The position numbers were made by a program, and so were the translations under genes. Below the pieces are notes generated by a model. The model saw only the letters and a program-made list of their open reading frames with translations, ran no database searches and was not told where the DNA came from. Below, one piece after another: positions 6,089 through 30,310 of a DNA stretch of 64,000 nt. Location: positions 5,143,501 through 5,207,500 of the forward strand of contig NZ_CP080025.1 of NCBI RefSeq assembly GCF_020463795.1. Reading direction: 5' to 3'. Position 1 is the stretch's first letter. Each line of letters starts with the position of its first letter. Origin of the DNA: Echinicola marina (GTDB lineage Bacteria; Bacteroidota; Bacteroidia; Cytophagales; Cyclobacteriaceae).

Positions 6089-9000
6089 TTAGAATTTCAC
6101 ACTTAAGTTAAAACCATAACTCCTCGTCTGAGGAACCCCGTACCACTCCAGGCCTTGTCCGTTGGATGAACTGTAAGTTGACTCTGGATCGATATTATCC
6201 ACTTCACTATGAATCAACCATAAATTCCTGCCTATTAACGATAAACTTGCTGAACTGAAGGGAGTGTTCCTTAACAAACTATTGGGGAATACATAGCCCA
6301 AAGAAACCTGTCTTAATTTGATATAATCGGCACTGTACACAAAATATTCGGTGATGGACGCCAACTGACTGTAATAGTTCTGTACAGTGGTAATACCTTG
6401 GTTACCAGGATCACTAGCAGCTATTTCCCAAGTTTTAGGATCACCATTTTCATCTACACCAGAAATGGTCAAACCATTTTCCCTACCTTCCAAGGTTGCC
6501 TTATGCATACCGTTGGAATAGGAATTGGCATTTGTACCAGAGAATAAAGACCCTCCAAACTTAAAGTCTACCAAGAAACCTAATGTAAAATTCTTAAAGG
6601 CAAAGTTGTTATTCCAACCACCTGCCCAAGGTGCAACGCCATCACCTAAATAAAAGGCTCCGCTTTCCTGAACAGGCAATCCATTGGCATCATATACCTT
6701 CTGCCCATCAATTCTCCTATGCTTTAGACCTACGATCACTCCATAACCTCCTTCCATGTACATCTGGGTTTCTTCATCCACATAAGGAATTCTATGCTGG
6801 ATATTGGCACCTCCGCCTCTTGGCGATTCCACAGATAGCACCTTGGAATCTCCAAATAATTGGTCCACATCATTTTTATTATAGGAGAAGTTCAAGCTCG
6901 TATTCCATCTCAGCTGACTACTTTCCAAAATAGATCCAGTCACCAATACTTCATGACCTGAATTGGACACCTTGCCTACGTTTACAGTAGCGTTGCCATA
7001 GCCGGAAGTTTGAGAAATGGTCGCTTGGATAATATCATCCCTTGTCTCCCGATTATAATAGGCATAATCTATACCCAATCGATCCTCAAAAAACCGAATA
7101 TCCACGCCTACCTCAAACTCATTGGTCCTCAAAGGCTTCAACTGGCTATTAGGCACACTGGTTTGATCGATTCTACCCAAGGCGGCCCCATTATGCCCCT
7201 GGCCGAACAAACTGTAATTGAGTATCAATTGATAGGGATCTGTACCTCCACCAGCTCCGGCCATGGAGGCCCTTACCTTACCAAAAGATATCCATTCTGG
7301 TAATTCAAATGCTTCTGAGAAAACAAAACTTGCTCCCACACTTGGGAAAAGCAGGTCATTTGAATCTGTAGGTAATGTGGAGTACCAATCATTTCTGGCG
7401 GTCGCATTTAGGAATAATAAATCTTTATACGAAAACTCAGCAGATCCATAAAGTGAATTGATACCAAATTCCCTGATACTGTATATAATGGATTGCTGAC
7501 CTCCATTGGGCAGTGTATGTAAAAACGGTACATTGAAATTCGTGGCCCTACCGCCCAAAACCTCATATTTATTGGTCATGGTACTGCCTCCTACAAATGC
7601 GCTCACACCAAAATCCCCCCATTTGTGATCTGAGCCTAACATCCAGTCCATATTAATTTCCCGGACCCGATGTTCTTCTTCGTTCAAAGCACCCAATTGA
7701 ATATAGGCCGTACCATAGGGCTCTAAACTTCTCCTTCTGGAAGTATAGAAATCCGAGCCTATCCTACCTTGCAAATACAACCAATCCGTAAAATCGTACC
7801 TTGCTAATGCTGAGCCTATCACCCGGTCCCTGATATTGGAATTTTCAAATTGATAAGCCGCCCAATATGGATTTTGGGTAAAAGTATTATCCACATACTG
7901 AAGCTCGTAACCATCAGGCCTTGCCCCTAATTTGTTGGGGTCTCCTTTCAAATCAAGGACATTAATACTTGGTGGCAATACCGATAAGGTTGCGTTGCCA
8001 TTACCAGGCGCATCCGATAGCCTTGCCCTATTGCTTACATCTTCTCTTGAATATTGGATTTTAGCAGAAAGGGTTAATTTCTCTATATAATTGGCATTGG
8101 TGGACAACGTAGCGGTTTGCCGGTTCATCCCTGAATTAGGGGTGATTGCCTGATTTCTCAAATCGGATACAGAGAATCTAAAAGTTTGCTTATCATTGCC
8201 GCCACTTAAAGCAACTGTGTTGGTCCAAGTAGTCCCTGTCCTATAATACCTGCCAAAATTATCTCCAGCATACACATAGGGCCTTTGTTCACCATCAAAC
8301 TGATAAACCATAGAACCATCAAGTTTACCTCCCCAAGCCGATGCTCCATATAAAAAGCCTTGGCCCTCATTAGCCGGTTTTAAACCTGCATTACCATGGC
8401 CATATTCTTGTTGGAAATCAAAGCGATTAATAATGCGGTCAGCAGTAAACTGGGAATTTACCTCTACTCCAATGCCTTTTCTATTTACACCTTTTTTCGT
8501 GGTGATCAATACCACACCATTCGAAGCTCTGGAGCCATACAGTGCCGCAGCTGTATTACCTTTCAGTACACTCATGGATTCTATATCATCCGGGTTGATA
8601 CTGGTCAATCCATCTCCCCAGTCAACTCCCCCCCCACATACCAGCACTACCCAGTTGGGAATTATCCATTGGTACTCCGTCTATTACGAACAATGGTTGG
8701 TTTTGGCCACTTAAAGAAGAGTTACCTCTGATAACTATCCTACTCGAACCAGCTACACCAGAACCAATATTGCTCACATTTACACCGGCTACACGTCCCT
8801 GGATCTGATCTCCCAAACTAATTTCCCGGGCCTCCACCAAATCGTCCCCACCTACTTCCGTAACTGAATAAGCCAGGGATCGCTTCTCTTTTGCAATACC
8901 CAAAGCAGTCACCACCACCTCGGACAAATCTGCCAAATCCTCTTCCAAGGTCACGTTAAGGCTACTTCGGTTTCCTACCGTGAACTGTTGTGAAACATAA

Positions 9001-9230
9001 CCTACAAATGAAAATTCAATTATGGTTTCATCAGTAACATTTATGGAATACTTACCATCAAGATCTGTCACTGTACCTGTATTGGTAGCTGTATTCCGGA
9101 CATTCACCCCTGGAATGGGCTGCCCATCTGAAGAACCTATCACGGTTCCACTCAGTACTCTATCTTGCGCCTGGACCTCCAGGTTGATCAATAGTGCCAT
9201 AGAAAATATGGCCAGTAAAATTTTGCTCAT
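6089..9230 (-). pseudogene. SusC/RagA-type TonB-linked receptor, split by a +1 shift in a G8 run
   Basis: Two overlapping frames together make one receptor. The 5' frame (9230 down to 8622) encodes a signal peptide, carboxypeptidase-regulatory domain (VLSGTVIGSSDGQPIPGVNV) and plug to PLFVIDGVPMDNSQLGSAGMW; it then hits TGA. The 3' frame (to 6089) continues with GVDWGDGLTSINPDDIESM, the rest of the plug and a full barrel ending in NLSVKF. The switch falls exactly in eight consecutive C on the plus strand (8628-8635). Seven would join both parts to a normal protein of 1046 residues reading MWGGVDWGDG. The gene pairs with the SusD at 4524-6071. Options are a sequencing error in the homopolymer, a recent inactivating indel, or slipped-strand on/off switching; the sequence cannot tell these apart. 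Confidence 0.88.
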
Positions 9231-12882: not shown

Positions 12883-13917
12883 TATGTGTATCCGTTTTAC
12901 TGCACGTATGGGTAAGTGCCCGCAATAACGAGCCTTTCAAAGAGTCCTTTGCCAAAATATCTTCGGTTCAATCTGTAAACAAACTCATTTAAATAGTTCT
13001 GTAAATATTTATAAGTTATCATGTGATATACCCCCAACAGGGTTCTTTTAAGATTACTGATTGCTTTGTGTACCCATTTTAAGGTGTCGTTTACGGACTC
13101 CTTTCCCGATGGAACGGCCAAATGGGTGGCCACCACTTCCTCTATTTTCGAGTAGGCCGTGTTCTTGTCTGTAAACAGTACCACATCCCCTACGGTATTG
13201 GCCCGGATAAAGGCATTGACACTCTCGCAGTCCACTTTGTCCATGACCCTCATTTTGAAATAGCCACAGCGCTTTGTTTTCTGCCCGGAATCCAGGTCTT
13301 CCAAGGGTACCGATTCGGCCGCCACCGCTACTGCGGTCTGTTTCTGGCTGCCTTTTCCACGTTTAAGCTGACCCAAGATCTGGTTCTCCTGTACGGTTTC
13401 CATATAACACTCGTCATATTCAATCATGTCACTGAGGATATAAAGCTCATCTCGTTGTCCCATGGCTGACCGTATCCTGTGCATCAGACGGAAAGTGGTC
13501 TCATATCGGCTAAGCCCCAGTTGCCGCTGGAGCTCAAGGCAGGAAAACCCTTTCTTGGTCGCCGACATAAACAGCATGGCCAATAGCCAGATACGGAGCG
13601 GAAGCTTGCTGTTTTCCATTACCGTCCCTGATTTAAGAGAAGAACGTCTCCGACAACTGCTGCATTCGAAAAACCTGCCGTTGGCAAACCAATAGTGTCG
13701 GGTTATCTTCTCACAGTTTTTGCACCGTATACCGCTTTTCTCACGGTATTTCTTGATGTATTGTTCACAACTTTCCTCATCTGGGAAATGGCCCGTAAAT
13801 TCTATAAGGTTCATAGCTTTTCTTGTTTTTATGCAAGAAAACAACTATCCTGATACCTTGAAATTTAATGACACGTATTGTCATATTTTATTACGTGCAC
13901 TCTTACGGATACACATA
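12883..13917 (-). mobile_element. Complete IS1595-family insertion sequence, 1035 bp
   Basis: The ends are 26-bp inverted repeats: left 12883-12908 and right 13892-13917 share TATGTGTATCCGT, differ at four of the next five bases and then share TGCACGTA, so 22 of 26 match. An 8-bp duplication (TTATCTTT) flanks the element. One transposase gene fills it. Intact ends, an intact duplication and an intact gene indicate a recent and probably still active insertion. It landed just upstream of the DUF1080 gene. Removing it and one duplication copy restores a continuous intergenic sequence. Confidence 0.9.
12897..13844 (-). CDS. IS1595-family (ISXO2-like) transposase
   Basis: 315 residues. The N-terminal zinc ribbon is seen in IRCKNCEKITRHYWFANGRF and FECSSCRRR, followed by KLPLRIWLLAMLFMSATKKG and the helix-turn-helix-like LGLSRYETTFRLMHRIR. 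The DDE-type catalytic domain includes YDECYME, VVLFTDKNTAYS and VHKAISNLKRTLLGVYHMI, and ends with LNEFVYRLNRRYFG, all typical of ISXO2-like transposases. A second ATG at codon 11 (MNLIEFTG) matches the usual start of the family and may be the true one. The stop codon lies within the left terminal repeat. The frame is intact. Confidence 0.93.
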   Translation of the reverse strand: MFSCIKTRKAMNLIEFTGHFPDEESCEQYIKKYREKSGIRCKNCEKITRHYWFANGRFFECSSCRRRSSLKSGTVMENSKLPLRIWLLAMLFMSATKKGFSCLELQRQLGLSRYETTFRLMHRIRSAMGQRDELYILSDMIEYDECYMETVQENQILGQLKRGKGSQKQTAVAVAAESVPLEDLDSGQKTKRCGYFKMRVMDKVDCESVNAFIRANTVGDVVLFTDKNTAYSKIEEVVATHLAVPSGKESVNDTLKWVHKAISNLKRTLLGVYHMITYKYLQNYLNEFVYRLNRRYFGKGLFERLVIAGTYPYVQ

Positions 13918-15820: not shown

Positions 15821-16940
15821 ATGAAATCCCCCCATTGCTTCATTCTTCTTTATATCCTTGTTTTGGCCACCCTGTTTTCTTGTGGCCCAAAAGAAGCCTC
15901 CAAAAAATATAAAATAGGCTTCTCCCAATGTGTCAGCAATGATGCCTGGAGAAAAGCCATGCATGACGAAATGTACCGCGAACTGTCCTTCTATCCTGAC
16001 TTGAGTTTGGAAATAAAGGATGCAAAGGGGGACAATGCTACTCAAATCCGCCAAATAAAAGAACTGGTGGAATCTGGGATTGACTTATTGATTGTATCAC
16101 CTAATGAATCATCGCCGATAACCCCAATTGTAGAGGAGGTTTTCCAAAATGGAACACCAGTGATCGTAGTAGACCGAAAAACTTCCTCAAACCTATATTC
16201 GGCCTATGTAGGTGGCAATAATTATGAGGTGGGATTCACGGCAGGACAGTATATCCGTAATCTTCTAAATGGCAAAGGTGAAATTTTGGAAATTTGGGGG
16301 CTTAGAGGTAGCTCCCCGGCTGTAGAAAGACACAGAGGGCTGCTCAATGCTTTTCAAGGTTCAGACATTAATATTGTCACTGAGATCAGTGGACAATGGG
16401 AAAAAGACACTGCCAAAAACCAACTAAGGGCCCATCTGTTAAAAGAAAATATTCCTGAATTTGACTTAATATTTGGTCATAATGATGTAATGGCCATAGG
16501 CGCACATGAAATATGCAATGCATTAAATATCCACCATAAAAAATTCCTGGGAGTAGACGCCCTTCCCGGTCCTTACGGAGGAATCCAAGCTGTAACAGAT
16601 GATGTACTCGACGCTACTTTTTTCTACCCCACTGGTGGAGACAAATCCATTGAAGTGGCCCATAAGATACTTAAAGGTGAATACTTTGAAAAAGAAAACA
16701 TCCTTCAAACAGCCGTGGTTGATTCATCCAATGTCCGGATCATCAAACAACAGACAGATAAAATCATAGATCAACAAGACAATATTACCCGTCAAAGAGA
16801 CCGGATCAATATTCAAATGGAGATTTACAAAAACCAAAGAACTTTTCTCTTTGTTTTCGGCCTTACTTTGGTAGTAGCCATCATTTCACTGGCCTATATT
16901 TTCAAATCCCTAAGAGATAAACAAGAAATCAATGAGGAAG

Positions 16941-17487
16941 TAAATAATCCTCGGGGCAAGCCCACGAGGCATTATTGGTCAATCGAATATTTTTAATTGA
17001 TAATTGGTCTTCAGTTTTTTATATCCTTTTTCCAGCCCTTGACTCTTTACATAATTAGCGATCTTTTCCTCTGTTCCATGTTGGCCTACCGTATTGACAA
17101 AATATCCCTTACCCCAAAACTCCCCTCCCCAGAGCTGTTTTTTCACCTCTGGGCATTCTTTAAACACCTCTCGTGACACTAAACTCTTTATCTTTCTCAC
17201 TATTTTGGTTATACTATACGTTGGAACCGATTGGATCAGAAAATGTACATGGTCAGCATCTGTACCGATTTCCAGAAATTTAATCTCATATCTTAGTTCT
17301 ATCTGTTCACACGTCGATGTCAGAACTTTATCAACCTCTTTACTGAACACTACTCGTCTATATTTTGCTGAGCAAACTATATGGTACAGCAAAACTGATA
17401 CATTATGACTCTTATGGATATACTTACTTTCTTGCGACATCGAGTCACAAGATAGTAAAACGAGGCTAGCCTCGGGGAATTTGACCC
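16941..17487 (-). mobile_element. IS200/IS605-family insertion sequence (tnpA only), ends approximate
   Basis: The element carries one tnpA gene, and the usual subterminal hairpins lie at both ends: 16949-16969 (CCTCG, GGG, loop CAAG, CCC, one A bulge, CGAGG) and 17461-17474 (CGAGGC-TA-GCCTCG). There are no inverted terminal repeats and no target duplication, as expected for this single-strand transposition family. Exact cleavage points cannot be fixed by eye; TTGAC at 17481-17485 is a plausible boundary motif. About 545 bp. It interrupts the HTCS gene between the membrane segment and the kinase domain. Confidence 0.88.
16979..17440 (-). CDS. tnpA: IS200/IS605-family Y1 transposase TnpA
   Basis: 153 residues, the normal length. 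The HUH motif is visible in TDADHVHFLIQ, the catalytic tyrosine in IANYVKSQG, and LLYHIVCSAKYRRVVF and GGEFWGKGYFVNTVG are characteristic of the family. It cuts and rejoins single-stranded DNA at hairpin-marked ends. The frame is complete and no key residue is missing, so the element may still move. No TnpB gene accompanies it. Confidence 0.95.
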   Translation of the reverse strand: MSQESKYIHKSHNVSVLLYHIVCSAKYRRVVFSKEVDKVLTSTCEQIELRYEIKFLEIGTDADHVHFLIQSVPTYSITKIVRKIKSLVSREVFKECPEVKKQLWGGEFWGKGYFVNTVGQHGTEEKIANYVKSQGLEKGYKKLKTNYQLKIFD

Positions 17488-19117
17488 TAAGAGATTAAAA
17501 AACAAAAACAAGGAGATCTCAGAACAAAAAGACAAAGTCCTTGAACTATCCCAAAAGGCTGAAAAAGCCACTCAACAAAAATTTGAGTTCTTCACCAATA
17601 TTTCCCATGAATTCAGGACTCCGCTTACTTTGATCCAAGCTCCAGTTGAAGACCTCCTAAACAATAAAGATGCCGCTCCCTTTAAAAATGATCTGTCATT
17701 GATAAGGAAAAATTCAATGCGGCTATTACGATTGGTCAATCAACTAATGGACCTGAGAAAGTTAGATTCTGCAAAAATGCATATAAAGGCTGCGGAACAT
17801 GACATCATTCCTTTTTTGGAAGAAATCATGTCCTCTTTCCAAAAATTAGCACTGCAAAGTGGCATTACCTTTAAACTTATAACAGAAGACAGAAATCTCA
17901 AGTTATGGTTTGATCCCATGATGCTGGACAAAGTCATGTTCAACCTACTTTCCAATGCTTTTAAATTCACACATGAAAAGGGAAGCATCATCATTAAAGT
18001 AGAACAAAATGCACTTTCAAATGAAGTACTGATAAAAGTTGAAGATACAGGTGAAGGTATGTCTGAAGAATCTGTCAAACATATATTCAACCGATTTTAT
18101 CAGGGAGAGAATTTTTCCCAATCTGGATCAGGTCTTGGCCTGGCACTGTCCAAGGACTTGATTGAACTACATCATGGACATATAGAAGTTGAAAGCCATC
18201 TGGGTAATGGCACTAAATTTTCTGTTCATCTTAAAAGCGGAAAAGCCCATTTTAATTCATCTGAAATAATCGAAGGTGAGCATCAGCAATATTTCTCTGA
18301 AGAAAACATAAGTTTTGAAGATTTTGAGCCCCGCCCTGTGATGGTTGAAAGTGACGAACCAAAAGAACATACCGTTCTTGTCATTGAAGATGAAAAACCC
18401 ATACGGGATTATCTGTGTAAGCAGCTGGGAAAACACTTTCATATCATCCAAGCTGAAAATCTTGAAACAGGTCTAAACAAGGCCCTGGACCAAGTTCCCG
18501 ACCTTATTACCATTGACCTGATGCTCCAGCAGAAAAACGGATTTGATATAGTTAAAATCCTGAAAAATGACATCAGAACCTCACATATCCCCATCATTGT
18601 AATAACTGCTAAAAAAGGAATCGAAGAACGCATAAAAGGCATCAAACTGGGAATAGATGATTATATCACCAAACCATTTAGCTTTGAATTGGTCCTCGAA
18701 AGAATCAAAATGCTCCTGGCCAATAGGCAAAAATTAAGAGAACATTATATTCATGAATTGCCTGTCGAAAATACGGCCATTACTAAACAGTCTCCTGACA
18801 AAAAGTTTGTAAGTAACTTCACTGCACTGGTGGAGAAAAATATCTCCAATTCCCAATTTGGCGTCAATGAAATTTGTCTGGAAATGGGACTTTCCAGAGG
18901 CCAGCTTTACAGAAAATTAAAAGCCCTTTTGGGATACAGTGTAAATGACTATATCAATAAGGTCAGATTAAAGAAAGCCAAACACCTCCTTTTGACAGAA
19001 AACTCTCCCATTGCTGACATTGCCTTTCAGGTAGGTTTTACGACTTCAGCCTACTTTTCCACTGCATTTAAAAACCACTTTGGCATTACGCCTTCTGAGT
19101 TTAGAGACCAACAACAT

Positions 19118-19147
19118 CAAAATTGATTCAAATTTGAATCAATTTTG
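19118..19147 (+). terminator. 30-bp perfect palindrome over the HTCS stop codon
   Basis: CAAAATTGATTCAAA (19118-19132) is followed immediately by its exact reverse complement (19133-19147). The HTCS stop TGA is at 19124-19126, inside the left arm. The stem is AT-rich with T-rich ends. A terminator that isolates the regulator from the fructan operon is likely; a two-fold protein site is the alternative. Confidence 0.55.
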
Positions 19148-19220
19148 AAAACCTGACACAAAATTGAAAGTCTAAAAACTCACAAATCCACACCGAAACC
19201 GATTGAAATCAACAATACAC

Positions 19221-19284
19221 CTTGATTTTTTATTTATCAAGCCCTTTTGATCTGAAATTGTAATTTTTTGAAACAAGATCAAAA
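19221..19284 (+). promoter_or_regulatory. Candidate operator region of the fructan operon
   Basis: Two inverted repeats lie about 450-520 bp before the susC start: CTTGAT (19221-19226) with ATCAAG (19236-19241), and TTTTGATCT (19245-19253) with AGATCAAAA (19276-19284). The shared TTGAT/ATCAA words suggest repeated sites for one protein, possibly the AraC-type output domain of the adjacent HTCS. Binding is not shown by sequence alone. Confidence 0.35.
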
Positions 19285-19328
19285 TTTCCCTCCATTTATA
19301 CTTCATAGCTTAGTCCTAACAATAAGCC

Positions 19329-19742
19329 ATGAAAGAAATAACAATATATTACCTTGACATTAACCTACTATACAGTCTTTTATTTTGTACAGTAATAATA
19401 ATGATTCAGAAAGGAAGTCCTGAAGTTCTCAAAGGGAACGTTATGATTTCCCATACACTTTCTATCACTGTTATGGGGCTTGCGATCCTTGATTATCCAA
19501 TCCTAAAAGCCAGTAGTAAGAACCAATTATTTCACTCCCAAACACTAACTGAAACTGCGGTCTATAATTACCCAATAAGTACGGCTATACCTTTCCTTTT
19601 ACCCTTTAATTCTATCATTAGCGGAACCATATATACTGCAGCTACTTGTCCTGTTTTATATACAGTTAATGACATCCATAAAACCCAACCAACAAAAATT
19701 AACCTAAACAATAACAAAATGAAAAACCCATTTACCCTATGA
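19329..19742 (+). CDS. Doubtful 137-residue open frame in the leader of the fructan susC
   Basis: An ATG-started frame of 137 residues ends with TGA overlapping the susC ATG (19739) by four bases. It contains hydrophobic stretches (LLYSLLFCTVIIMIQ, PFLLPFNSIISGTIY) but I recognise no family, and residue use is unlike that of a typical soluble protein. It may be a chance frame in a long 5' leader. The ATGA overlap would fit translational coupling if it is real. A very short frame (MKNPFTL) ends at the same TGA. Confidence 0.2.
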   Translation: MKEITIYYLDINLLYSLLFCTVIIMIQKGSPEVLKGNVMISHTLSITVMGLAILDYPILKASSKNQLFHSQTLTETAVYNYPISTAIPFLLPFNSIISGTIYTAATCPVLYTVNDIHKTQPTKINLNNNKMKNPFTL

Positions 19743-22700
19743 AAACAAGTGTATTAAGTCTATTATTTGCCCTTTTGCTTGTTTTGCCACTTATGGCACA
19801 AACCAGAGAAATCACAGGCAAAGTAACCGACCAGTCCTCAGGAGAAGCCCTTCCTGGTGTGACGGTGCAAGTACAGGGCACCACCCAAGGTGCCATCACC
19901 GATTTGGATGGAAACTATTCCATCACAGCTGGTCCCGATGCAATTTTAGTATTTTCCTTTATTGGTTATGCATCAGTATCAGAAACAGTCGGCAACAGAA
20001 GTATTATAGATGTGATCCTAAGTCAAGATATTTCCAATTTGGAAGAGGTGGTAGTAGTGGGATATAGTTCCCAGAAAAAATCAGATATGACTGGAGCAAT
20101 TGTAGCCGTGGACTTGGCTCCCTTAGAGGGACAAAGCATGAGTACCGGTAACCCCATGCAGGCCTTACAGGGCCGTGTTCCAGGTTTATATGTCGAAAAA
20201 TCAGGCGATCCTTCCGGTTCCAATAGCAGAATCCTGATCCGAGGGATAACCACGCTGGGAAACAACGATCCATTATATGTCATTGATGGTGTCCCAACGA
20301 AAAGACAAGAGGTTTTTGCCAGTCTTAATCCCGAGGCCATAGAGTCTGTACAAGTATTAAAAGATGCATCCGCTTCTTCTGTATATGGATCCCGGGCAGC
20401 CAATGGTGTAATCGTGGTGACTACTAAAAACAAAAGCCTAGGTGGTGATAAGTTTAGCGTAACCTTTAACACCAATGTTTCAAGACTATCCGAAAAACCA
20501 CAACGATACGACATGCTCAATGCAGTCCAAAGAGGCGAAGTGCTGTGGCGCGCCTCTGTCAATGATGGCGCTGACCCCGCAGGTGGATATGGAGAAATCT
20601 ATAATTTTGACTGGAACGGTGATTTTGACAATCCAGTTTTGAACAGCGTTACGGTCCAACCTTTCGTGGGTGGTGACGAAACAGTTCCTGCTGGAGATAC
20701 CGATTGGCAGGATGCGACCTATGAAACAGGCTGGGCTTTCAATAATGAATTGACCGTAGCAACCAATTCAGAGAAATCATCGCTGATGATCAATTTAGGC
20801 AACTATAAAAACACGGGGATGCTTAAATACACCAATTATGAGCGAAACACTGCTCGGATCAACGCCAACACTTGGCTATTTGATGATGTTGTGAAATTTG
20901 GGATAAATACCCAATTCAGCTCTTCCAATGAAACGCTCGCCACTCCTGATGTGGGTAGTGCTCCTACTCCCGGACTGGCCATCTATATGGCACCAACCAT
21001 CCCTGTATATGATATCAACGGTAATTTTGCAGGACCTCTAGGAGCAGGGTATTCGGACAGAAATAATCCAGTTCTCATGCAATACATCAACAGATGGGAC
21101 AATACCCGCAAAAACAATTTTTATGGAAATGTATTTGCAGAAATCAATATTTTGGAAAACCTAAAATTCCGCAGCAGCTTGGGCCTTGATTATAGCGATT
21201 TCCAGAAAAAAGACATAGAGCCCAAAGTAAACAATGGCTTTATCACTAGGAGCAATAACAGGCTTATTTGGGATACCAATAAGTTCACCAGCTTGGTATT
21301 TTCCAATACCCTAAACTACCAACTCACTAAAGGATCACACAGGTTTGAAGCCCTTTTGGGAGTAGAATCCATCAAAGACGATTTGAATAGTTTAATAGCT
21401 ACGGCCGATGGTTTTGCGGTTGAAACAGAATCCTATTTTGTACTGGATGCCGCCACAGGAGCAAGAACCTCCAATGGCCGCTCCACAGGTAACCGCTTAT
21501 TGTCACAATTCGGTAAACTGAACTATGCCTTCGATGACCGTTATTTGGCTTCTTTTACCCTAAGGCGTGATGGTTCTTCCAGGTTCGGTAGCAATAACCG
21601 ATATGGTGTGTTCCCAGCTGCTACCGTTGGTTGGAGAATAAGTAATGAAGAATTTCTTAAAGACAATCCTACCCTTTCTGATTTGAAACTGAGAATTGGC
21701 TATGGGGAAGTTGGTAATCAGGAAATTGGAGACTTGGCCAGGTTTGGTCTTTATGAATCCAGGTATGGCCCGAACCAAGCCCAATACATCGGTGGTTTTT
21801 TTGAAATCTACTATAATGTGGGTACAGCCTATGATATTAACGGAAACAATACAGGAAACCTTCCATCTGGCTTTGTTTCCATACAAGCTGAAAACCCTGA
21901 TTTGAAATGGGAGACTACCAAAGAATGGAACTTTGGCTTAGATTTCAGCCTGTTCAATTATGCCATCAATGGCTCCTTTGACTATTTTACCAGAGAGACC
22001 AGTGATATCCTAACCACTCCTCCGATTGCCTCTGTAATAGGTGAAGGACAACAGCGCGTATTAAACGGAGCTACCACCAAAACCAATGGATGGGAACTTG
22101 CACTGAACTATGCCAAGGACTTTGACAATGGGATGACCTTTACCATCAATACCAATTTTGGGGCTTTTGCTGACGAAATCACCTATTTGCCTGAAGAGGT
22201 AAGGGCAGCTTTCCCTGGAACTGCACAAAACTCAATCATTGGCCATTCGCAGTTCTCCATATTCGGTTACCAATATGATGGACTATTCCAAAGTCAAGAG
22301 GACGTAGACAACAGCCCGGATCAGGTGGGTGCAAGACCCGGTGGCTTGAAGTTTAAAGACATCAATAATGATGGGGTAATAGATTCTGATGATAGGGATT
22401 TTATCGGCACCACACTTCCTGCCTTAGAATACGGTGTAGGCTTTGATCTTTCCTATAAAAATTTCGACTTCTCCATCTTTGGTTCAGGCGTTACAGGAAG
22501 AATCGGACAGGACCCCTATATTTTCTGGAACAACTTTGTTCAAGGACGTGAAAATGCAGGTTTAGGTGTTTTGAATGCTTGGACCCCGGAAAACACCAAT
22601 ACAGATATTCCTTCCCTTTCCTTGGCTTTCAATGACCAAAGAACCTCTGATTACCTTTTCAGAAACAACTCCTATTTTAAAATCAGAAATCTCCAAATTG

Positions 22701-22888
22701 GCTATTCCTTACCCGAATCCATCATCAACAAATGGGCAGGAATGTCTAGACTGAGGGTATATTTCCAAGGGGAAAACCTCTTGTATTTTACACCTAGTGG
22801 CTATATCGGATCTGATCCTGAGCGTACAGATTCAAACAGAATCCCGGTACCCACCACGCTTTCACTAGGACTTAATGTAAACTTCTAA
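19739..22888 (+). CDS. SusC-type TonB-linked fructan receptor
   Basis: 1049 residues. Signal peptide (SVLSLLFALLLVLPLMAQ), carboxypeptidase-regulatory-like domain (REITGKVTDQSSGEALPGV, AITDLDGNYSI), plug (VVVGYSSQKKSDMTG, PLYVIDGVPTKRQ, AIESVQVLKDASASSVYGSR) and beta-barrel (RRDGSSRFGSNNRYGVFP, PDLKWETTKEWNFGLDF, final LGLNVNF). It forms the outer membrane channel that takes up oligosaccharides, powered by TonB. Assignment to fructan rests on context: SusD 11 bp downstream, two GH32 enzymes, a sugar porter and a fructokinase in the same direction, in the order known from characterised Bacteroides fructan loci. The frame is intact. Confidence 0.94.
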   Translation: MKTSVLSLLFALLLVLPLMAQTREITGKVTDQSSGEALPGVTVQVQGTTQGAITDLDGNYSITAGPDAILVFSFIGYASVSETVGNRSIIDVILSQDISNLEEVVVVGYSSQKKSDMTGAIVAVDLAPLEGQSMSTGNPMQALQGRVPGLYVEKSGDPSGSNSRILIRGITTLGNNDPLYVIDGVPTKRQEVFASLNPEAIESVQVLKDASASSVYGSRAANGVIVVTTKNKSLGGDKFSVTFNTNVSRLSEKPQRYDMLNAVQRGEVLWRASVNDGADPAGGYGEIYNFDWNGDFDNPVLNSVTVQPFVGGDETVPAGDTDWQDATYETGWAFNNELTVATNSEKSSLMINLGNYKNTGMLKYTNYERNTARINANTWLFDDVVKFGINTQFSSSNETLATPDVGSAPTPGLAIYMAPTIPVYDINGNFAGPLGAGYSDRNNPVLMQYINRWDNTRKNNFYGNVFAEINILENLKFRSSLGLDYSDFQKKDIEPKVNNGFITRSNNRLIWDTNKFTSLVFSNTLNYQLTKGSHRFEALLGVESIKDDLNSLIATADGFAVETESYFVLDAATGARTSNGRSTGNRLLSQFGKLNYAFDDRYLASFTLRRDGSSRFGSNNRYGVFPAATVGWRISNEEFLKDNPTLSDLKLRIGYGEVGNQEIGDLARFGLYESRYGPNQAQYIGGFFEIYYNVGTAYDINGNNTGNLPSGFVSIQAENPDLKWETTKEWNFGLDFSLFNYAINGSFDYFTRETSDILTTPPIASVIGEGQQRVLNGATTKTNGWELALNYAKDFDNGMTFTINTNFGAFADEITYLPEEVRAAFPGTAQNSIIGHSQFSIFGYQYDGLFQSQEDVDNSPDQVGARPGGLKFKDINNDGVIDSDDRDFIGTTLPALEYGVGFDLSYKNFDFSIFGSGVTGRIGQDPYIFWNNFVQGRENAGLGVLNAWTPENTNTDIPSLSLAFNDQRTSDYLFRNNSYFKIRNLQIGYSLPESIINKWAGMSRLRVYFQGENLLYFTPSGYIGSDPERTDSNRIPVPTTLSLGLNVNF

Positions 22889-22899
22889 AATTGGAAATC

Positions 22900-24642
22900 A
22901 TGAAAAATTATAAATTATATATCTCAGCTATTATACTAGGGTTTTCCTTGGTTTCTTGTTCGGAAGACTTCCTTGAATATGAACCCGAAGGCGTACTCTC
23001 TAGTGAAAATGTGGCCACTCCAGAAAATGCTGAAGGATTAGTGATTGCAGCTTATGCAGGCATTGGCAATGATGAAATGGTGGGCCCCCTTACCCATATG
23101 TGGGTATTTGGTAGTGTTCGATCAGATGATGCCTATAAAGGCGGAGGTGGCCGTACCGATGTTGGGGAGATTGACAGATATGAACAATACAATTTGACCA
23201 TTCCTGACCAAGGTGATTTTATGGCCCCAAGGACATGGACCAATTACTACAAAGCCATCTCCAGAGCCAATTTTGCCTTGCAGGTGATCAATGAAATTCC
23301 TGATGGAGCTTATGCCAATAAGACAATAAGGCAAGCTGAATTGAGGTTTTTGAGGGCTCACTCCCACTTTATGCTTAAAATATTGTTCAAAAAAATCCCC
23401 TATATCACAGAGGAATTAAGTCAAGAAGAAATCGGCCAAGTAAGCAATGAGATCCCCAATGATGAGCTTTGGGACAAGATTGCGGATGATTTTCTTTTCG
23501 CCTATAATAACCTCCCACAATCCCAGGATGAAGTAGGTAGAGCAGACAAGAATGCTGCTGCTGCTTATCTGGCCAAAACACGGCTATTCCAAGCTTATGA
23601 ACAAAACGAAGACCATCAGGTTACCAATATAAATACCTCTAGATTGGAAGAAGTCATACAGTATGCAGATGAGGTAACCGGCAGCTTGGAAGATGACTTT
23701 GGGAACAACTTCTTGGATGGTTTTGACAATGGACCAGAGTCCATTTGGGCAGTACAGTTCTCCATCAATGACGGGACCACCGTGGGACGATTAAGCTTTG
23801 TAACCGGATTAAACTCACCGCATGGAACAGGATTATATGGCTGCTGTGGCTTTCACCTTGCCAGCCAAAACATGGTCAATGCCTTCAAAACAGATGCAAA
23901 TGGCCTTCCCTTATTGGACGATTTCAATAACGAGGACATTTTCACCAATTTATTGCCTGATGGCACGACTCCTGCATCTACAGGACTTACCGTAGACCCT
24001 AGATTGGACCACACAGTAGGGATACCAGGAAGACCATTCAAATACAGAAATACTGTCAACTCAAGTGGTGACATGGTCTATAACTTCAGCTGGGCAAGGG
24101 ATCCAGGGGTCTATGGCTATTTTGGAAATATGAAAGAACAACAAGCTCCAGATTGTTCTTGCTATAAAAAAGAAGGCCCTTTTATCGGCACCTCAAAAAA
24201 CATAGATTTTATCCGCTACGCTGATGTATTACTATGGAAAGCAGAAGCATTAATCCAGTTGGACAGATGGAACGAGGCCCTTCCATTAATTAACGAGATA
24301 AGGGCGAGAGCGGCTGCCAGTACTTCACGACCACTCAATGCCGGTGCAGAGGACATCTACAATATTGGACTTTATACCTCCTTTCCCAATAAAGAGTATG
24401 CTTGGAAAGCTTTGAAATTCGAAAGAAGATTAGAATTTGCCATGGAGGGTGACCGTTTCTTCGATTTGGTGAGATGGGGTGAAGCAGAAGAAGTACTGAA
24501 TGCCTATCTGGCTGAAGAAAAAACCAAAAGGGACTTCTTGTCCAGTGCTGAATTTACCGCTGGCAGGGATGAATATTATCCTATTCCTCAAAGGGAGATT
24601 GACTTTACGGGTGGGCTTTATAAGCAAAACCCTGGCTATTAA
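22900..24642 (+). CDS. SusD-family fructan-binding lipoprotein
   Basis: 580 residues from the ATG at 22900; a TTG nine bases earlier is in frame but less likely. Lipoprotein signal LGFSLVSCSEDFLEYEP (mature Cys about 20). SusD features: TPENAEGLVIAAYAGIGNDE at the start, RQAELRFLRAHSHFMLKILF in the TPR part, and the C-terminal pattern RYADVLLWKAEALIQL, ALKFERRLEFAMEGDRFFDL, VRWGEAEEVL. This full-length SusD form acts as the substrate-binding lid on the SusC channel encoded immediately upstream. It contains an unusual GTGLYGCCGFHLAS segment. Fructan binding is inferred from neighbours. Confidence 0.94.
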   Translation: MKNYKLYISAIILGFSLVSCSEDFLEYEPEGVLSSENVATPENAEGLVIAAYAGIGNDEMVGPLTHMWVFGSVRSDDAYKGGGGRTDVGEIDRYEQYNLTIPDQGDFMAPRTWTNYYKAISRANFALQVINEIPDGAYANKTIRQAELRFLRAHSHFMLKILFKKIPYITEELSQEEIGQVSNEIPNDELWDKIADDFLFAYNNLPQSQDEVGRADKNAAAAYLAKTRLFQAYEQNEDHQVTNINTSRLEEVIQYADEVTGSLEDDFGNNFLDGFDNGPESIWAVQFSINDGTTVGRLSFVTGLNSPHGTGLYGCCGFHLASQNMVNAFKTDANGLPLLDDFNNEDIFTNLLPDGTTPASTGLTVDPRLDHTVGIPGRPFKYRNTVNSSGDMVYNFSWARDPGVYGYFGNMKEQQAPDCSCYKKEGPFIGTSKNIDFIRYADVLLWKAEALIQLDRWNEALPLINEIRARAAASTSRPLNAGAEDIYNIGLYTSFPNKEYAWKALKFERRLEFAMEGDRFFDLVRWGEAEEVLNAYLAEEKTKRDFLSSAEFTAGRDEYYPIPQREIDFTGGLYKQNPGY

Positions 24643-24766: not shown

Positions 24767-26416
24767 ATGAAAACTTCACTTTTGAAAAGTTTATTATTTG
24801 GAGCCTTCATTTTACTCCTGACATTTACCTCCACTTGGGCTGGAGAGATTGAACTTAGGATTACCAAAAATTACCTTAACTTCCCTGTTAGTCATCAAGA
24901 AGACCGGCATAAAATGACCTTCCATATTCCTGGTCAAGCAGACTTAACCGTGGTCATTCGGCTATCTGCTGATGAACCTGACTACTGGGTATTCAAAGAT
25001 GTTTCCAACCTAAAAGGTAAAACCATAAAGATTTCCTATGAGGGAAATGAAGCTGGGCTGTCCAAAATCTATCAGGCAGATGAGATAGAAGGGGAAGCCA
25101 ATATATACCAAGAGAAAAACAGGCCTCAGTTTCATTTTACCACACAAAGGGGCTGGATCAATGATCCCAATGGACTGCTTTTTCATGATGGGGAATACCA
25201 CCTCTTTTACCAACATAATCCCTATGAAAGGGAATGGGAGAATATGCACTGGGGACATGCGGTGAGCAAGGATCTTATCCATTGGGAAGAACTTCCGGAC
25301 GCCTTATACCCCGACCATTTGGGAGCCATGTTTTCTGGATCAGCAGTTATTGATTATAATAATACAGCCGGTTTTAATAAGAAAAACACTCCTGCTATGA
25401 TTGCTGCTTATACAGCTGCAGGTCCTGAAAAGCAAGTGCAGGCCATCGCCTATAGCCTGGACAATGGACGCACCTTCACCAAGTATGAGGGCAATCCTGT
25501 TATTGATTCAAAACACATCTGGAACAGTCAAGATACACGAGACCCCAAGGTCTTTTGGTATGAACCTGGAAAACACTGGGTCATGGTCCTCAATGAAAGG
25601 GATGGCCATTCCATCTATAATTCCAATGATCTTAAAAATTGGGAATACCAAAGTCATATCACAGGATTCTGGGAATGCCCCGAATTATTTGAATTACCCA
25701 TAGATGGTGATACCAATAACACCCTTTGGGTGATGTATGGGGCTTCAGGAACCTATATGCTGGGTGATTTTGATGGCAAGACCTTTACGCCTAAAGCAGG
25801 AAAATACCAGTTCACCTCTGGTCCTATTTATGCGGCACAGACATTTACCAATGTCCCCAATGGACGTAGGATACAAATAGGTTGGGGACAAATCACACAT
25901 CCAGAAATGCCATTTAAAGGTATGATGATGCTCCCCACAGAACTAAGCCTCAAGGAAACCAAAGATGGGCCAAGACTCTTTAACCTTCCCGTAAAGGAAA
26001 CTGAGCAGCTGTTTACGCCCATTCAACATTGGGAAACGCTCTCTGCGGAAAAAGCAAACGAGGCCCTAAAGCCACTTTCTGAATCTGGGGAAGTACGAAT
26101 CAAAACCACCATCAAGCTTTCCCACGCGACCAGTGCTGGCTTGAACCTTTTTGGTCAAAACATCTTGAATTATGACCTTAACTTCAACAAAATTAACGGT
26201 GTATTCTATTCCCCCAATGATCCCACAAGCATGGAAATATCAGCAGATATCTATATTGACCGGAGCAGTATTGAGGTATTTGTGGACGGAGGGGCACTAA
26301 CATTGATTATGCCGAGAAGACCAGACACCAACAATAATGAAGGCTTCCATTTTTGGGGCAACAATATTGAAATAAAGAATTTGGAAGTATTTGAGGCTAA
26401 GTCAATATGGGAATAG
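24767..26416 (+). CDS. GH32 beta-fructosidase with N-terminal DUF4980-like domain
   Basis: 549 residues with a cleavable signal (LLFGAFILLLTFTSTWAGE). An N-terminal beta domain of the DUF4980 type (about 25-115) precedes the five-bladed GH32 propeller: WINDPNG with the Asp nucleophile, MHWGHAVSKDLIHWEELP, MFSGSAVID, the RDPK transition-state motif and ECPEL with the acid/base Glu. The C-terminal sandwich carries YIDRSSIEVFVDGG. The enzyme releases fructose from levan, inulin or sucrose, probably in the periplasm. Exo or endo action and linkage preference cannot be read. It lies 124 bp after susD, on the same strand as the rest of the locus. Confidence 0.95.
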   Translation: MKTSLLKSLLFGAFILLLTFTSTWAGEIELRITKNYLNFPVSHQEDRHKMTFHIPGQADLTVVIRLSADEPDYWVFKDVSNLKGKTIKISYEGNEAGLSKIYQADEIEGEANIYQEKNRPQFHFTTQRGWINDPNGLLFHDGEYHLFYQHNPYEREWENMHWGHAVSKDLIHWEELPDALYPDHLGAMFSGSAVIDYNNTAGFNKKNTPAMIAAYTAAGPEKQVQAIAYSLDNGRTFTKYEGNPVIDSKHIWNSQDTRDPKVFWYEPGKHWVMVLNERDGHSIYNSNDLKNWEYQSHITGFWECPELFELPIDGDTNNTLWVMYGASGTYMLGDFDGKTFTPKAGKYQFTSGPIYAAQTFTNVPNGRRIQIGWGQITHPEMPFKGMMMLPTELSLKETKDGPRLFNLPVKETEQLFTPIQHWETLSAEKANEALKPLSESGEVRIKTTIKLSHATSAGLNLFGQNILNYDLNFNKINGVFYSPNDPTSMEISADIYIDRSSIEVFVDGGALTLIMPRRPDTNNNEGFHFWGNNIEIKNLEVFEAKSIWE

Positions 26417-26506: not shown

Positions 26507-28012
26507 ATGAAAACTTCATTCAACCCCTTGATATACCTGCTCATCTTAGGGATGTTTGCAGCATGTACTGAGTCCAAAAAAGAAAAACAAGCTGAATTGG
26601 AAATCCCCAATTCCGAACCTGCCTTTGATGAGACTTACCGTCCTCAATATCATTTCACTCCTCCAAAATCCTGGATGAATGACCCCAACGGAATGGTGTA
26701 TTTGGATGGAGAATACCACTTATTTTACCAGCACAACCCTGACAGCAATGTCTGGGGTCCAATGCACTGGGGGCACGCGGTTTCCACAGATATGTTGCAC
26801 TGGGAACATTTGCCCATCGCGCTTTACCCTGATAGTCTAGGTACCATATTTTCTGGTAGCGCTGTGATTGACAAAGGAAACACGAGTGGGCTGGGTGAAG
26901 ATGGCAAAAACCCCATGATAGCCATTTTTACCTATCACCATCCGGAAAAAGGCCAAACCCAAGGAATTGCCTTTAGCAATGACAAAGGGAGAACTTGGAC
27001 CAAATATAAAAACAATCCAGTACTGAACAACCCTGGAATACCTGACTTTAGAGACCCCAAGGTGAGCTGGTATGACCAAGGTAATGGAACCGGAAAATGG
27101 ATCATGACCCTGGCGGTAAAGGACAAAATCAGCTTTTACTCCTCTCCCAACTTAATTGACTGGGAACATGAAAGTGATTTCAGTCCCTCATGGGCTTCCT
27201 ATGGTGGCGTTTGGGAATGCCCGGACTTGTTTCCATTAACTGATCAAGAAGGTCATGAGAAATGGGTATTACTGGTCAGCATCAACCCCGGAGGACCCAA
27301 CGGGGGATCGGCCACCCAATATTTTACAGGAAACTTTGATGGTGGAAATTTCACCGCTGATGGCAAGGATGTGAAGTGGATAGATTACGGGGCTGACAAT
27401 TATGCCGGTGTTACTTGGTCTGACATCCCAAAAACAGATGGAAGAAGATTATTTCTAGGCTGGATGAGCAACTGGCTATATGCCAATATTGTCCCTACTA
27501 CCATTTGGAGATCAGCCATGACCCTGCCTAGGAAACTCGAACTATATCATTTTGAAGGCAAAGACTTATTGGCCTCCAGGCCTGTAATGGAAGTCAAAAC
27601 ATTATACGGTAATTCGGAAAAAATCGAAGCCAAAAGCCATTTATTGAGAGACGAACTTTTCCATTTGGATTTAAAAACAGCAAATGGGAACAGGGCATCC
27701 ATTAAGTTCAGCAATGATTTAGGAGAAGAGGTTCTCCTTCATATTGAACAGAACAAAGTAATTTTCGACAGAAGCAAATCAGGTCAGGTCAAATTCAATG
27801 AAGCTTTCCAAGCCATACATGAAGCGCCCCTAAATGGCCTGGAGATTAATGATATTGATATTTATTCAGATAAATCTTCTCTAGAGTTCTTTTTCAATGA
27901 TGGGGAACTGGTCTTAACAGAGATATTATTTCCCAATTCTCCATTATTAAAATTGGATTTGGAAGGGATAGAAAACAATGGTGAAGTTCATTATCTGAAT
28001 TCCACTTGGTAA
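26507..28012 (+). CDS. GH32 beta-fructosidase, lipoprotein
   Basis: 501 residues with lipoprotein signal LILGMFAACTESKKEK (mature Cys about 20). Catalytic motifs are complete: WMNDPNG (Asp nucleophile), MHWGHAVSTDMLHWEHLP, IFSGSAVID, FRDPKVSWYD and WECPDLF (acid/base Glu). The C-terminal beta-sandwich includes DIYSDKSSLEFFFNDGE. It lacks the N-terminal extra domain of the preceding paralogue and is membrane-anchored, so the two enzymes probably differ in placement and substrate. A surface-exposed first-cut or periplasmic final-cut role are both possible. Confidence 0.95.
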   Translation: MKTSFNPLIYLLILGMFAACTESKKEKQAELEIPNSEPAFDETYRPQYHFTPPKSWMNDPNGMVYLDGEYHLFYQHNPDSNVWGPMHWGHAVSTDMLHWEHLPIALYPDSLGTIFSGSAVIDKGNTSGLGEDGKNPMIAIFTYHHPEKGQTQGIAFSNDKGRTWTKYKNNPVLNNPGIPDFRDPKVSWYDQGNGTGKWIMTLAVKDKISFYSSPNLIDWEHESDFSPSWASYGGVWECPDLFPLTDQEGHEKWVLLVSINPGGPNGGSATQYFTGNFDGGNFTADGKDVKWIDYGADNYAGVTWSDIPKTDGRRLFLGWMSNWLYANIVPTTIWRSAMTLPRKLELYHFEGKDLLASRPVMEVKTLYGNSEKIEAKSHLLRDELFHLDLKTANGNRASIKFSNDLGEEVLLHIEQNKVIFDRSKSGQVKFNEAFQAIHEAPLNGLEINDIDIYSDKSSLEFFFNDGELVLTEILFPNSPLLKLDLEGIENNGEVHYLNSTW

Positions 28013-28092: not shown

Positions 28093-29436
28093 ATGAACAG
28101 TAAAAAGTACGTAATTTTTCTCTCTATAGTAGCCGCATTGGGAGGTTTTCTATTTGGCTTTGATACCGCAGTAATCTCAGGGGCCGAAAGGTTCATCCAG
28201 GAGAAATGGCAACTCAGTGATTGGACCCATGGAATGGCGGTTGCCATTGCACTTTATGGCACAGTGATCGGAGCTCTTTTTGGAGGCGTTCCCGCAGATA
28301 AATACGGCCGTAAAAAATCTTTATTATGGATTGGGCTGCTCTATTTTGTCTCCGCCCTTGGCTCAGCACTGGCGCCAGATGTCATCACCTTTATGGCACT
28401 TAGGTTTATTGGAGGTCTCGGAGTGGGAGCTTCTTCAGTAGTGGCCCCCATGTACATCAGTGAAATTGCTCCTGCAAAAAACCGGGGAGTGCTGGTAGCC
28501 CTCTTCCAGTTCAATATCGTATTCGGTATTTTGATGGCCTACTTCTCCAATTACCTGATAGAAACCGCCAACCTCAATGAAAGCTGGAGATGGATGATGG
28601 GGATGGAAGCCATTCCTGCACTGATATATACTTTACTGACCATTAAGGTTCCCAAAAGTCCACGTTGGCTAATAGCCCATCAAAACAATGTCGCAGAAGC
28701 AACAGAGATATTGACCAAAACGGATCCTGAAGGTGTAGATGAAGCCATCAGACTGGCCATAGAAGAACGAAATAGAGAAAAAATAAAAGTAGGCTTTTCC
28801 GCCCTGTTCAAACACGGCCATATCAAAACCACCATGCTGGCCATAATGATCGCCATGTTCAACCAGCTTTCAGGAATCAATGCCATCATCTATTTTGCCC
28901 CAAGGGTATTTGAAATGGCAGGAATAGATGCTGAAAGTGCCTTATTATCCACTATTGGCATTGGAGCAGTAAATATGATAGCCACCATGTTGGGACTCTA
29001 CCTTATCGATAGAATAGGCCGGAAAAAACTGATGCTGATCGGTTCAGTTGGCTATATTATCTCCTTAATCTTGATTGCCTATTCCTTTTCTGGTGGGGCC
29101 ATTCCTCCATCCTATTTGCCCGTGTTTGTATTTATTTTCATTGCCTCCCATGCTGTAGGACAAGGCAGTGTTATCTGGGTGTTTATTGCGGAAGTATTCC
29201 CTAACGAAACCAGGGCATATGGCCAGTCCATTGGATGTTTCACCCATTGGATCTTAGCTGCCATCATCGCCAATATCTTCCCCTTCTTTGCCAATACCTT
29301 TGGTGCGGTGAGTATATTTGGCTTCTTTGCTTTGATGATGGTCTTGCAGCTGGTTTGGGTATTGACCAAAATGCCAGAAACCAAAGGACGCTCATTGGAG
29401 GAAATTCAACAAGATATGATCGCTAGCAATGCATAA
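28093..29436 (+). CDS. MFS sugar porter, probable fructose importer
   Basis: 447 residues, twelve predicted membrane helices, sugar porter family. Signatures: GFLFGFDTAVISGAE in helix 1, DKYGRKKSLLWIG between helices 2 and 3, VPKSPRWLIAH before the central loop, QLSGINAIIYFAPRVFE in helix 7, DRIGRKKLMLIG and the C-terminal MPETKGRSLEEIQ. It would move the released monosaccharide into the cytoplasm by proton symport. Its position between the GH32 enzymes and the fructokinase makes fructose the likely cargo. The 3' end overlaps the kinase start by 8 bp, which indicates coupled translation. Confidence 0.93.
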   Translation: MNSKKYVIFLSIVAALGGFLFGFDTAVISGAERFIQEKWQLSDWTHGMAVAIALYGTVIGALFGGVPADKYGRKKSLLWIGLLYFVSALGSALAPDVITFMALRFIGGLGVGASSVVAPMYISEIAPAKNRGVLVALFQFNIVFGILMAYFSNYLIETANLNESWRWMMGMEAIPALIYTLLTIKVPKSPRWLIAHQNNVAEATEILTKTDPEGVDEAIRLAIEERNREKIKVGFSALFKHGHIKTTMLAIMIAMFNQLSGINAIIYFAPRVFEMAGIDAESALLSTIGIGAVNMIATMLGLYLIDRIGRKKLMLIGSVGYIISLILIAYSFSGGAIPPSYLPVFVFIFIASHAVGQGSVIWVFIAEVFPNETRAYGQSIGCFTHWILAAIIANIFPFFANTFGAVSIFGFFALMMVLQLVWVLTKMPETKGRSLEEIQQDMIASNA

Positions 29437-30310
29437 AAAAATAGTCATCTTCGGTGAAATGCTTTGGGATTGTTTTTCTGATAGAAGCATCCCTGGAGGG
29501 GCACCTATGAATGTAGCTCTCCACACCCAATACCTGGGCTTGGAAACTTCCTTTATCTCAAAAGTGGGAAATGACAACTGGGGAAAGGAGCTGCTTGACT
29601 TTGTTCAAGATAAGTCCCTGAACACTGACCTGATCCAGGTAGACGAACATTATGATACCAGTAGGGTATTAGTGGATGATGCTGATAAGGAAAACATCAA
29701 ATATGAAATTGTAGAAGCAGTAGCCTGGGATTTTATCCAATGGTCAAAAGAAATGCAGAAAAAGGTCAATGAAGCAGATGCTTTTATCTTTGGCAGTCTG
29801 TCTGCTAGGAATGAAGATAGTAGAAACACCTTGTTTAAGCTCTTGGAAACATCCGTTCTAAAAATATTTGACATCAATTTAAGAGCTCCATATTTCGAGG
29901 CTTCACTGCTTGAAAAACTATTGAAGAAAGCAGATATCCTTAAGATCAACGACGATGAATTGCTCTTGCTCATGGATATTTTCAAACTAGACAAAAACGG
30001 GGATAAAGCCTTGGAAAGATTATCTGAAGATTTTGGATTACAAATGATCTGTGTGACCAAGGGAGCTGCCGGAGCCATTATTTATGATGGTAAAAAAAGC
30101 CATTCCCACCCAGGCTATAAAGTAAAAGTAGCCGATACCGTTGGTTCTGGCGATGCTTTTTTGAGCGGTTTTATCTATAAGTCACTTTCAGGTGATTCAC
30201 CCAAAGAGATATTGGATTTTGCTTGTGCACTCGGAGCTTTAGTTGCCACCAATAAGGGGGGTACTCCACAATATGAACTGGAAGACATTGCTTCCATTCA
30301 AAGGACCTGA
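29429..30310 (+). CDS. PfkB-family fructokinase
   Basis: 293 residues. The ribokinase-fold signatures are GEMLWDCFSDRSIPGGAPMN (substrate-binding start), FDINLRAPYF, ICVTKGAAGAII and the C-terminal DTVGSGDAFLSGF, with the catalytic Asp in GSGDAF. It phosphorylates fructose with ATP, committing the sugar brought in by the porter whose stop it overlaps. GGAPMNVA in place of the GGAxaNvA of ribokinases is typical for fructokinases. It is the last gene of the fructan operon: a strong terminator follows directly. Confidence 0.93.
   Translation: MHKKIVIFGEMLWDCFSDRSIPGGAPMNVALHTQYLGLETSFISKVGNDNWGKELLDFVQDKSLNTDLIQVDEHYDTSRVLVDDADKENIKYEIVEAVAWDFIQWSKEMQKKVNEADAFIFGSLSARNEDSRNTLFKLLETSVLKIFDINLRAPYFEASLLEKLLKKADILKINDDELLLLMDIFKLDKNGDKALERLSEDFGLQMICVTKGAAGAIIYDGKKSHSHPGYKVKVADTVGSGDAFLSGFIYKSLSGDSPKEILDFACALGALVATNKGGTPQYELEDIASIQRT

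Follow-up and report, generated by a model that had tools for sequence, protein, structure and literature searches.

An IS200-type element splits the BT1754-like regulator of a fructan locus in Echinicola marina, probably leaving a null allele that is revertible in principle

In the genome of Echinicola marina, a single 5.69-Mb contig, the regulator of a fructan locus is interrupted by a 555-bp insertion element. It is highly likely that a recent IS200-type insertion split this regulator into pieces that do not signal, and that the resulting allele is null but revertible in principle. The event is an ordinary insertion mutation by a known type of element, and its mechanism, an IS200-group insertion giving a null but potentially revertible allele, is a known one. 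We analysed the locus in a window of 64,000 nucleotides (the whole stretch of DNA under study, positions 5143501-5207500 of the contig), to which the coordinates refer unless stated otherwise. A preliminary description of the window, made from its letters, had noticed the interruption, and this observation was confirmed in nearly every detail; its suggestion of a reversible switch found no support.

Organization of the fructan locus

The features of the regulator, the element and the downstream genes are collected in Table 1.

Table 1. Coordinates of the interrupted regulator, the insertion element and the fructan genes in the window
Feature	Position	Strand	Evidence
Sensor half of fructan regulator	15821..16939	+	Peripla_BP_4 E 1.4e-39 (ORF 15821-16996); 2x7x E 2.8e-78, residues 29-329
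IS200-type insertion element, 555 bp	16940..17494	-	Nine full copies and exact empty site in G005
Right-end hairpin and terminal TTTAC	16940..16978	-	Fold z -3.48 (16930-16985, minus strand)
tnpA, Y1 (HUH) transposase, 153 aa, intact	16979..17440	-	Y1_Tnp E 4.8e-37; IS200/IS605 model 125.5 bits, cut-off 55
Left-end palindrome	17441..17494	-	z -1.05 alone (17440-17505); z -4.30 with tnpA start (17400-17505)
Target pentamer TTTAA on tnpA strand (TTAAA on +), kept in empty site	17495..17499	-	
Kinase/ATPase/receiver/AraC half of regulator	17495..19126	+	HisKA, HATPase_c, Response_reg, HTH_18
Better conserved non-coding block, 3' of regulator and 5' of susC	19127..19338	+	Alignment with G005 and G006
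SusC-type transporter, intact	19739..22888	+	TIGR04056 E 3.7e-243; 98.6% identity to G005
SusD-type lipoprotein, intact	22891..24642	+	NF033071 E 3.4e-12, below model cut-off; full length, 93-94% identity to G005/G006
GH32 enzyme a, intact	24767..26416	+	Glyco_hydro_32N E 8.9e-75, above cut-off; NCBIfam sucrose hydrolase models below cut-off
GH32 enzyme b, intact	26507..28012	+	Glyco_hydro_32N E 5.5e-98, above cut-off; NCBIfam models below cut-off
Sugar porter (MFS), intact	28093..29436	+	TIGR00879 E 7.3e-107, above cut-off
Fructokinase-like PfkB kinase, intact	29429..30310	+	NF006957 E 1.4e-34, below cut-off; full length in G005 and G006

The sensor half is ~91% identical to its counterparts in G005 and G006, the two congeners closest by regulator. 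It contains an N-terminal hydrophobic segment, a periplasmic sugar-binding domain, a second hydrophobic (membrane) segment and the start of the linker; its membrane segments were read off the sequence by eye and are putative. Of the genes downstream, those for the transporter, two GH32 enzymes, porter and fructokinase had been described as intact; all six (SusC, SusD, two GH32, sugar porter and fructokinase) are full length and collinear with those of G005 and G006. GH32 matches above the cut-off occur at nine places in the genome, and the only strong ones are the two of the fructan locus, the remaining seven being weak partial matches (E 2.7e-6 to 2.3e-4).

The block that follows the regulator stands out in the alignment with G005 and G006, most of the subsequent leader being less conserved, and is the probable promoter and operator region. 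A 137-aa frame 5' of susC (19329-19742) has no counterpart in G005, G006, G008 or G001 at E <= 1e-10. This region reads as a long leader, with one conserved block at ~19127-19338 and another directly before susC. In G008 and G001 (L138, L139), an additional sugar porter gene, with 47% identity to the porter at the end of the locus, lies between the regulator and susC.

A BT1754-like regulator divided into two frames

The element interrupts the regulator (15821-19126) in the linker that precedes the kinase domain, and its tnpA is on the minus strand. As had been described, a Y1_Tnp transposase separates the Peripla_BP_4 half from the HisKA/receiver/HTH_18 half. Because 555 is divisible by three, the two halves share a frame, an outcome with a chance of one in three. 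Excising exactly 16940-17494 gives one 916-codon frame, so the earlier claim that the halves rejoin to a gene of normal length was upheld.

Among solved structures, the best match of the sensor is 2x7x, which we take to be the BT1754 sensor. The BT1754-type domain set (sensor, HisKA, HATPase, receiver and AraC) is all present but on two split frames, and the regulator is classed from its sequence as a BT1754-like hybrid two-component system, as the preliminary description proposed. Like BT1754 of Bacteroides thetaiotaomicron, it has sugar-binding sensor, kinase, receiver and AraC domains and adjoins SusC/SusD, GH32, porter and fructokinase genes, which presumably also make up the BT1754 locus. 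It differs in that it is interrupted by an element and in that fructose is assigned as its ligand by homology only. A redundant second regulator was also considered and rejected, since a search of the genome with the sensor half found no second copy of the sensor at E <= 1e-10.

The sensor frame (15821-16996) takes in 18 residues from the element after 373 native residues and stops at 16994. The kinase frame contains eight stops within the element, the last of which is TAA at 17456. From this stop to the His codon at 17606, the start-codon scan found no ATG, GTG or TTG, which bears out the earlier statement that the kinase fragment has no start codon before its His box; only ATC at 17516 and ATT at 17600 are found there. 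The first usual start in the kinase frame is TTG at 17630, and the first ATG is at 17717.

As sequenced, the regulator is most likely null, given that no ATG, GTG or TTG precedes the His box, and the locus, though intact, is most likely uninducible. The sensor fragment would be an anchored binding protein without a kinase, and translation from TTG 17630 or ATG 17717 would give a protein without the phospho-accepting His. No other BT1754-like regulator was found in the genome, and this one would be reduced to two non-signalling pieces; no usual start yields a full kinase, in keeping with the earlier expectation that the split should leave no signalling protein. In B. thetaiotaomicron, the adjacent fructan locus is not induced without BT1754, and a mutant in which BT1754 is deleted has a growth defect on fructose (PMC3404733). 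The same outcome is therefore the best inference for E. marina, where the susC-to-fructokinase operon would not be inducible by fructose in cells that carry the element. Some expression could possibly still come from a basal or alternative promoter, or from initiation at ATC 17516 or ATT 17600. The assembly represents one state, and the population is possibly a mixture of occupied and empty sites. The allele is also a warning against predicting growth on fructan from the presence of an intact fructan locus.

Ends, copies and classification of the element

The genome contains eleven matches to the element, of which nine are full-length copies, one is a partial copy (~93% identity) and one is a fragment of 50 bases. 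An alignment of the nine full copies that included their flanks shows agreement between GTAAATAATCC and GACCCTAAGAGA, with TTAAA next, and divergence outside. Because the shared sequence ends at the same bases in the nine full copies, the copy in the window is bounded at 16940 and 17494. The right end is common to all nine, apart from one substitution in one copy. The other eight full copies differ from the window copy by 0, 0, 1, 1, 1, 2, 2 and 6 bases. TTTAA (on the tnpA strand) stands directly before the left end in 9/9.

The HVH and the Tyr of NYVKSQ in TnpA align with transposase chains 2xm3, which we take to be the ISDra2 TnpA, and 2xma, indicating that the HUH motif and the catalytic Tyr are present. 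Sub-terminal hairpins occur at both ends of the element, and the left one is significant only together with the tnpA start. Insertion is 3' of a fixed short target without duplication, as seen from TTTAA before all nine copies and from the empty site in G005. The element carries tnpA without tnpB: its 555 bp consist of the 153-aa tnpA with 39 and 54 bases outside, and the sole other listed frame (17094-17408, plus strand) is antisense to tnpA. These features assign the element to the IS200 group (tnpA only) of the IS200/IS605 family. It has in common with that group, whose mechanism is taken from IS608 and ISDra2, the Y1 transposase with HUH and Tyr, the sub-terminal hairpins, the lack of target duplication and the fixed pentamer beside the left end. 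It differs in that its 555 bp contain no tnpB and its mobility is putative. Its target TTTAA also differs from the TTGAT of ISDra2 (PMC2806898).

Two other identities were rejected. The model for a REP-associated domesticated transposase scored 37.2 bits against a cut-off of 80. For excision by RNA splicing (IStron-like), only the 39 and 54 bases are available outside tnpA, and no Rfam family matched anywhere in the window at gathering thresholds.

The regulator contains 18 TTTAA pentamers, counting both strands, so many targets are on offer. At the other eight full copies, we looked for flanking frames of at least 60 aa and found none at four. Of the remaining copies, one lies inside a short acetyltransferase-like frame (a weak match, E 0.042, with no match on the other side) and one at the end of a sigma-factor-like frame (E 1.5e-15), which it either interrupts or adjoins. 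A third adjoins a methyltransferase-like frame (E 6.5e-5, below cut-off), and the fourth is bordered solely by a 61-aa frame. Nothing suggests that the element targets regulators.

The partial copy (L018, 455250-455631 of the genome) is probably older than the nine near-identical copies, so the element family may predate its recent burst in the lineage. Among seven tnpA loci inspected in congeners, five have recognisably the same ends, each with 555 bases and with TTTAA before it (5/5). The remaining two, both in G007, have a tnpA only 51% identical without these ends, and are classed as another element. A related element occupies one shared site in G009, G010 and G004 (L032, L034, L037), with a stop at tnpA codon 7. 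It looks like a fixed, decayed insertion. G004 holds another related copy ~1.3 kb away with different flanks.

A recent insertion at a site that is empty in relatives

The joint obtained by removing 16940-17494 equals the G005 sequence letter for letter (GAGGAATTAAAAAACAAAAACAAGGA), with no base lost or duplicated. The earlier claim that a scarless empty site would restore the gene agrees with this joint. An assembly error is unlikely, given the exact match of the rejoined flanks to G005 at the target of the element. Reasoning from the sequence over target lengths of 4-6 bases, only a pentamer would keep the joint open; a tetramer gives a stop and a hexamer a frameshift. In the joint alignment only rows L020, L023, L026 and L029 are meaningful, as minus-strand loci were left unturned, and the frames of the other congeners come from a separate search of the genus.

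In that search of 11 genomes, the regulator is uninterrupted in all ten other congeners (frames of 914-985 aa), one of which carries a second uninterrupted regulator of 932 aa. The E. marina regulator, with a 555-aa frame, is the sole interrupted one in the genus. In a family sample of 295 genomes, scoring the four best candidates of each gave 20 places in 19 genomes at E <= 1e-180; 19 of the 20 are uninterrupted (895-985 aa, in 18 other genomes), the exception being E. marina itself. Relatives of tnpA at E <= 1e-40 were found in 5 of the 11 genus genomes and in neither G005 nor G006. By DNA, the element was found at E <= 1e-60 in 5 of the 295 family genomes, with two candidates per genome scored.

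We counted as lineage changes those codons that changed in E. marina where both other species, G005 and G006, agree. Synonymous and nonsynonymous changes were 46/7 in the sensor half against 114/20 for G005 and G006 pooled (p 1.0), and 79/11 in the kinase half against 140/27 (p 0.46). The regulator was under normal constraint for most of the history of the lineage. This constraint on both halves, together with the near-identical copies of the element, points to a very recent insertion. The regulator would thus have been inactivated in a single recent event, when an apparently active IS200-type element transposed into its linker, and its ancestral sequence is known from a close relative.

Loss-of-function alleles of regulators caused by insertion sequences are a general class. 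The E. marina allele resembles this class in being confined to a single genome, recent and disruptive, with the rest of the locus intact. It differs from the usual insertion alleles in that an element of the IS200/IS605 class can leave without a scar, which makes the allele potentially revertible.

Excision and alternative explanations

Judging from ISDra2 and IS608, TnpA may release the element in the form of a single-strand circle, so that the gene is rebuilt without a scar. Precise reversion of the regulator is plausible, since the catalytic residues of TnpA, the hairpins at the ends and the target are compatible with an active element. The expected outcome would be rare revertants and no regulated switch. 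The allele is a ready natural assay for precise excision by an IS200-group element in Bacteroidota.

A laboratory or lineage-specific loss of the gene without selection for fructan, within a broader decay of the strain's carbohydrate loci, is a possible if doubtful background. It concerns the cause of the insertion, not its mechanism, and is compatible with the preferred explanation. The very recent date would fit such a loss, as would another transporter gene of the window (6089-9230), which is also frameshifted while its orthologues are intact in two congeners. However, that frameshift falls within a run of G and is possibly a sequencing error, and the fructan locus is otherwise intact, without a significant nonsynonymous excess (lowest p 0.076, for the fructokinase).

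A reversible on/off switch, an idea raised in the preliminary description, would need precise excision at appreciable frequency, so that a population contains cells of both states and growth on fructan favours those that are on. We consider this unlikely. The catalytic HUH and Tyr, the hairpins at the ends, the retained target and the exact, in-frame joint would all serve it. Gene-restoring excision of ISDra2, with tnpA on its own promoter, occurred at ~2.6x10^-3 per viable cell; the restored gene was tetA, and excision was ~tenfold higher after irradiation (PMC2806898). IS608 and ISDra2 excise best with the transposed strand on the lagging-strand template (PMC5371812), and the tnpA strand of the window copy lies on the inferred lagging-strand template, the favoured arrangement. 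The fork direction was taken from GC skew in 40 samples of the chromosome, which switches sign at about 1.42-1.45 Mb and a second time at about 4.36 Mb, fluctuating weakly up to 4.46 Mb. Omitting two near-terminus copies, tnpA is co-directional with the inferred fork in 6/7 copies away from the skew switch (one-sided p 0.0625), and with one near-terminus copy added in 7/8 (p 0.035). This is a weak orientation bias, which assumes a G-rich leading strand.

Against a switch, no examined relative carries an insertion at this site (10 congeners and 19 other family places). The element is a multi-copy transposon found at eight other unrelated places in the genome, four of them without an open frame of at least 60 aa at the border, so nothing marks the regulator site as special. 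The copies in three congeners stayed at their shared site as tnpA decayed, a weak point, as a dead tnpA may explain it. IS200 is moreover described as apparently not mobile (PMC12594629). A dedicated reversible switch is thus unsupported. In an open-licence library, searches on insertions in polysaccharide-locus regulators or IS200/IS605 reversible switches gave only PMC5649170.

That the split pieces still work is very unlikely. Translation of the kinase half would have to begin at a non-standard start, or its transcript inside the element, and the product would have to act in trans, either constitutively or together with the sensor fragment. The kinase, receiver and AraC domains are all intact, and promoter-like matches occur on the plus strand inside the element at 16976-17004 and 17395-17424. 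However, such matches are not commoner than in shuffled sequence (13 against a mean of 13.5, for the one promoter type scanned), and the kinase frame lacks ATG, GTG and TTG from the last stop to the His codon. A functional gene pair of this kind, which the preliminary description had asked about in relatives, was found in none of the 10 congeners and at none of the 19 other family-sample places.

It is equally improbable that the element serves as a heritable, scarless, replication-coupled off state, a form of bet-hedging in which lagging-strand excision regenerates fructan users each generation and the nine near-identical copies could supply TnpA in trans.

Other features of the window

The SusC-type gene at 6089-9230 (minus strand) lies beside SusD-like and LacI-type genes and is frameshifted at an 8-base G run into frames of 852 and 202 aa. 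The intact orthologues in G006 and G005 (1062- and 1047-aa frames, 96% identity) are without this run. Possible explanations are a sequencing error, a genuine lesion and a tract prone to slippage. A transposase with an IS1595-type domain (E 2.3e-22) is encoded at 12897-13844 (minus strand), and the genes beside it resemble methionine sulfoxide reductases, a name given from reading their sequences.
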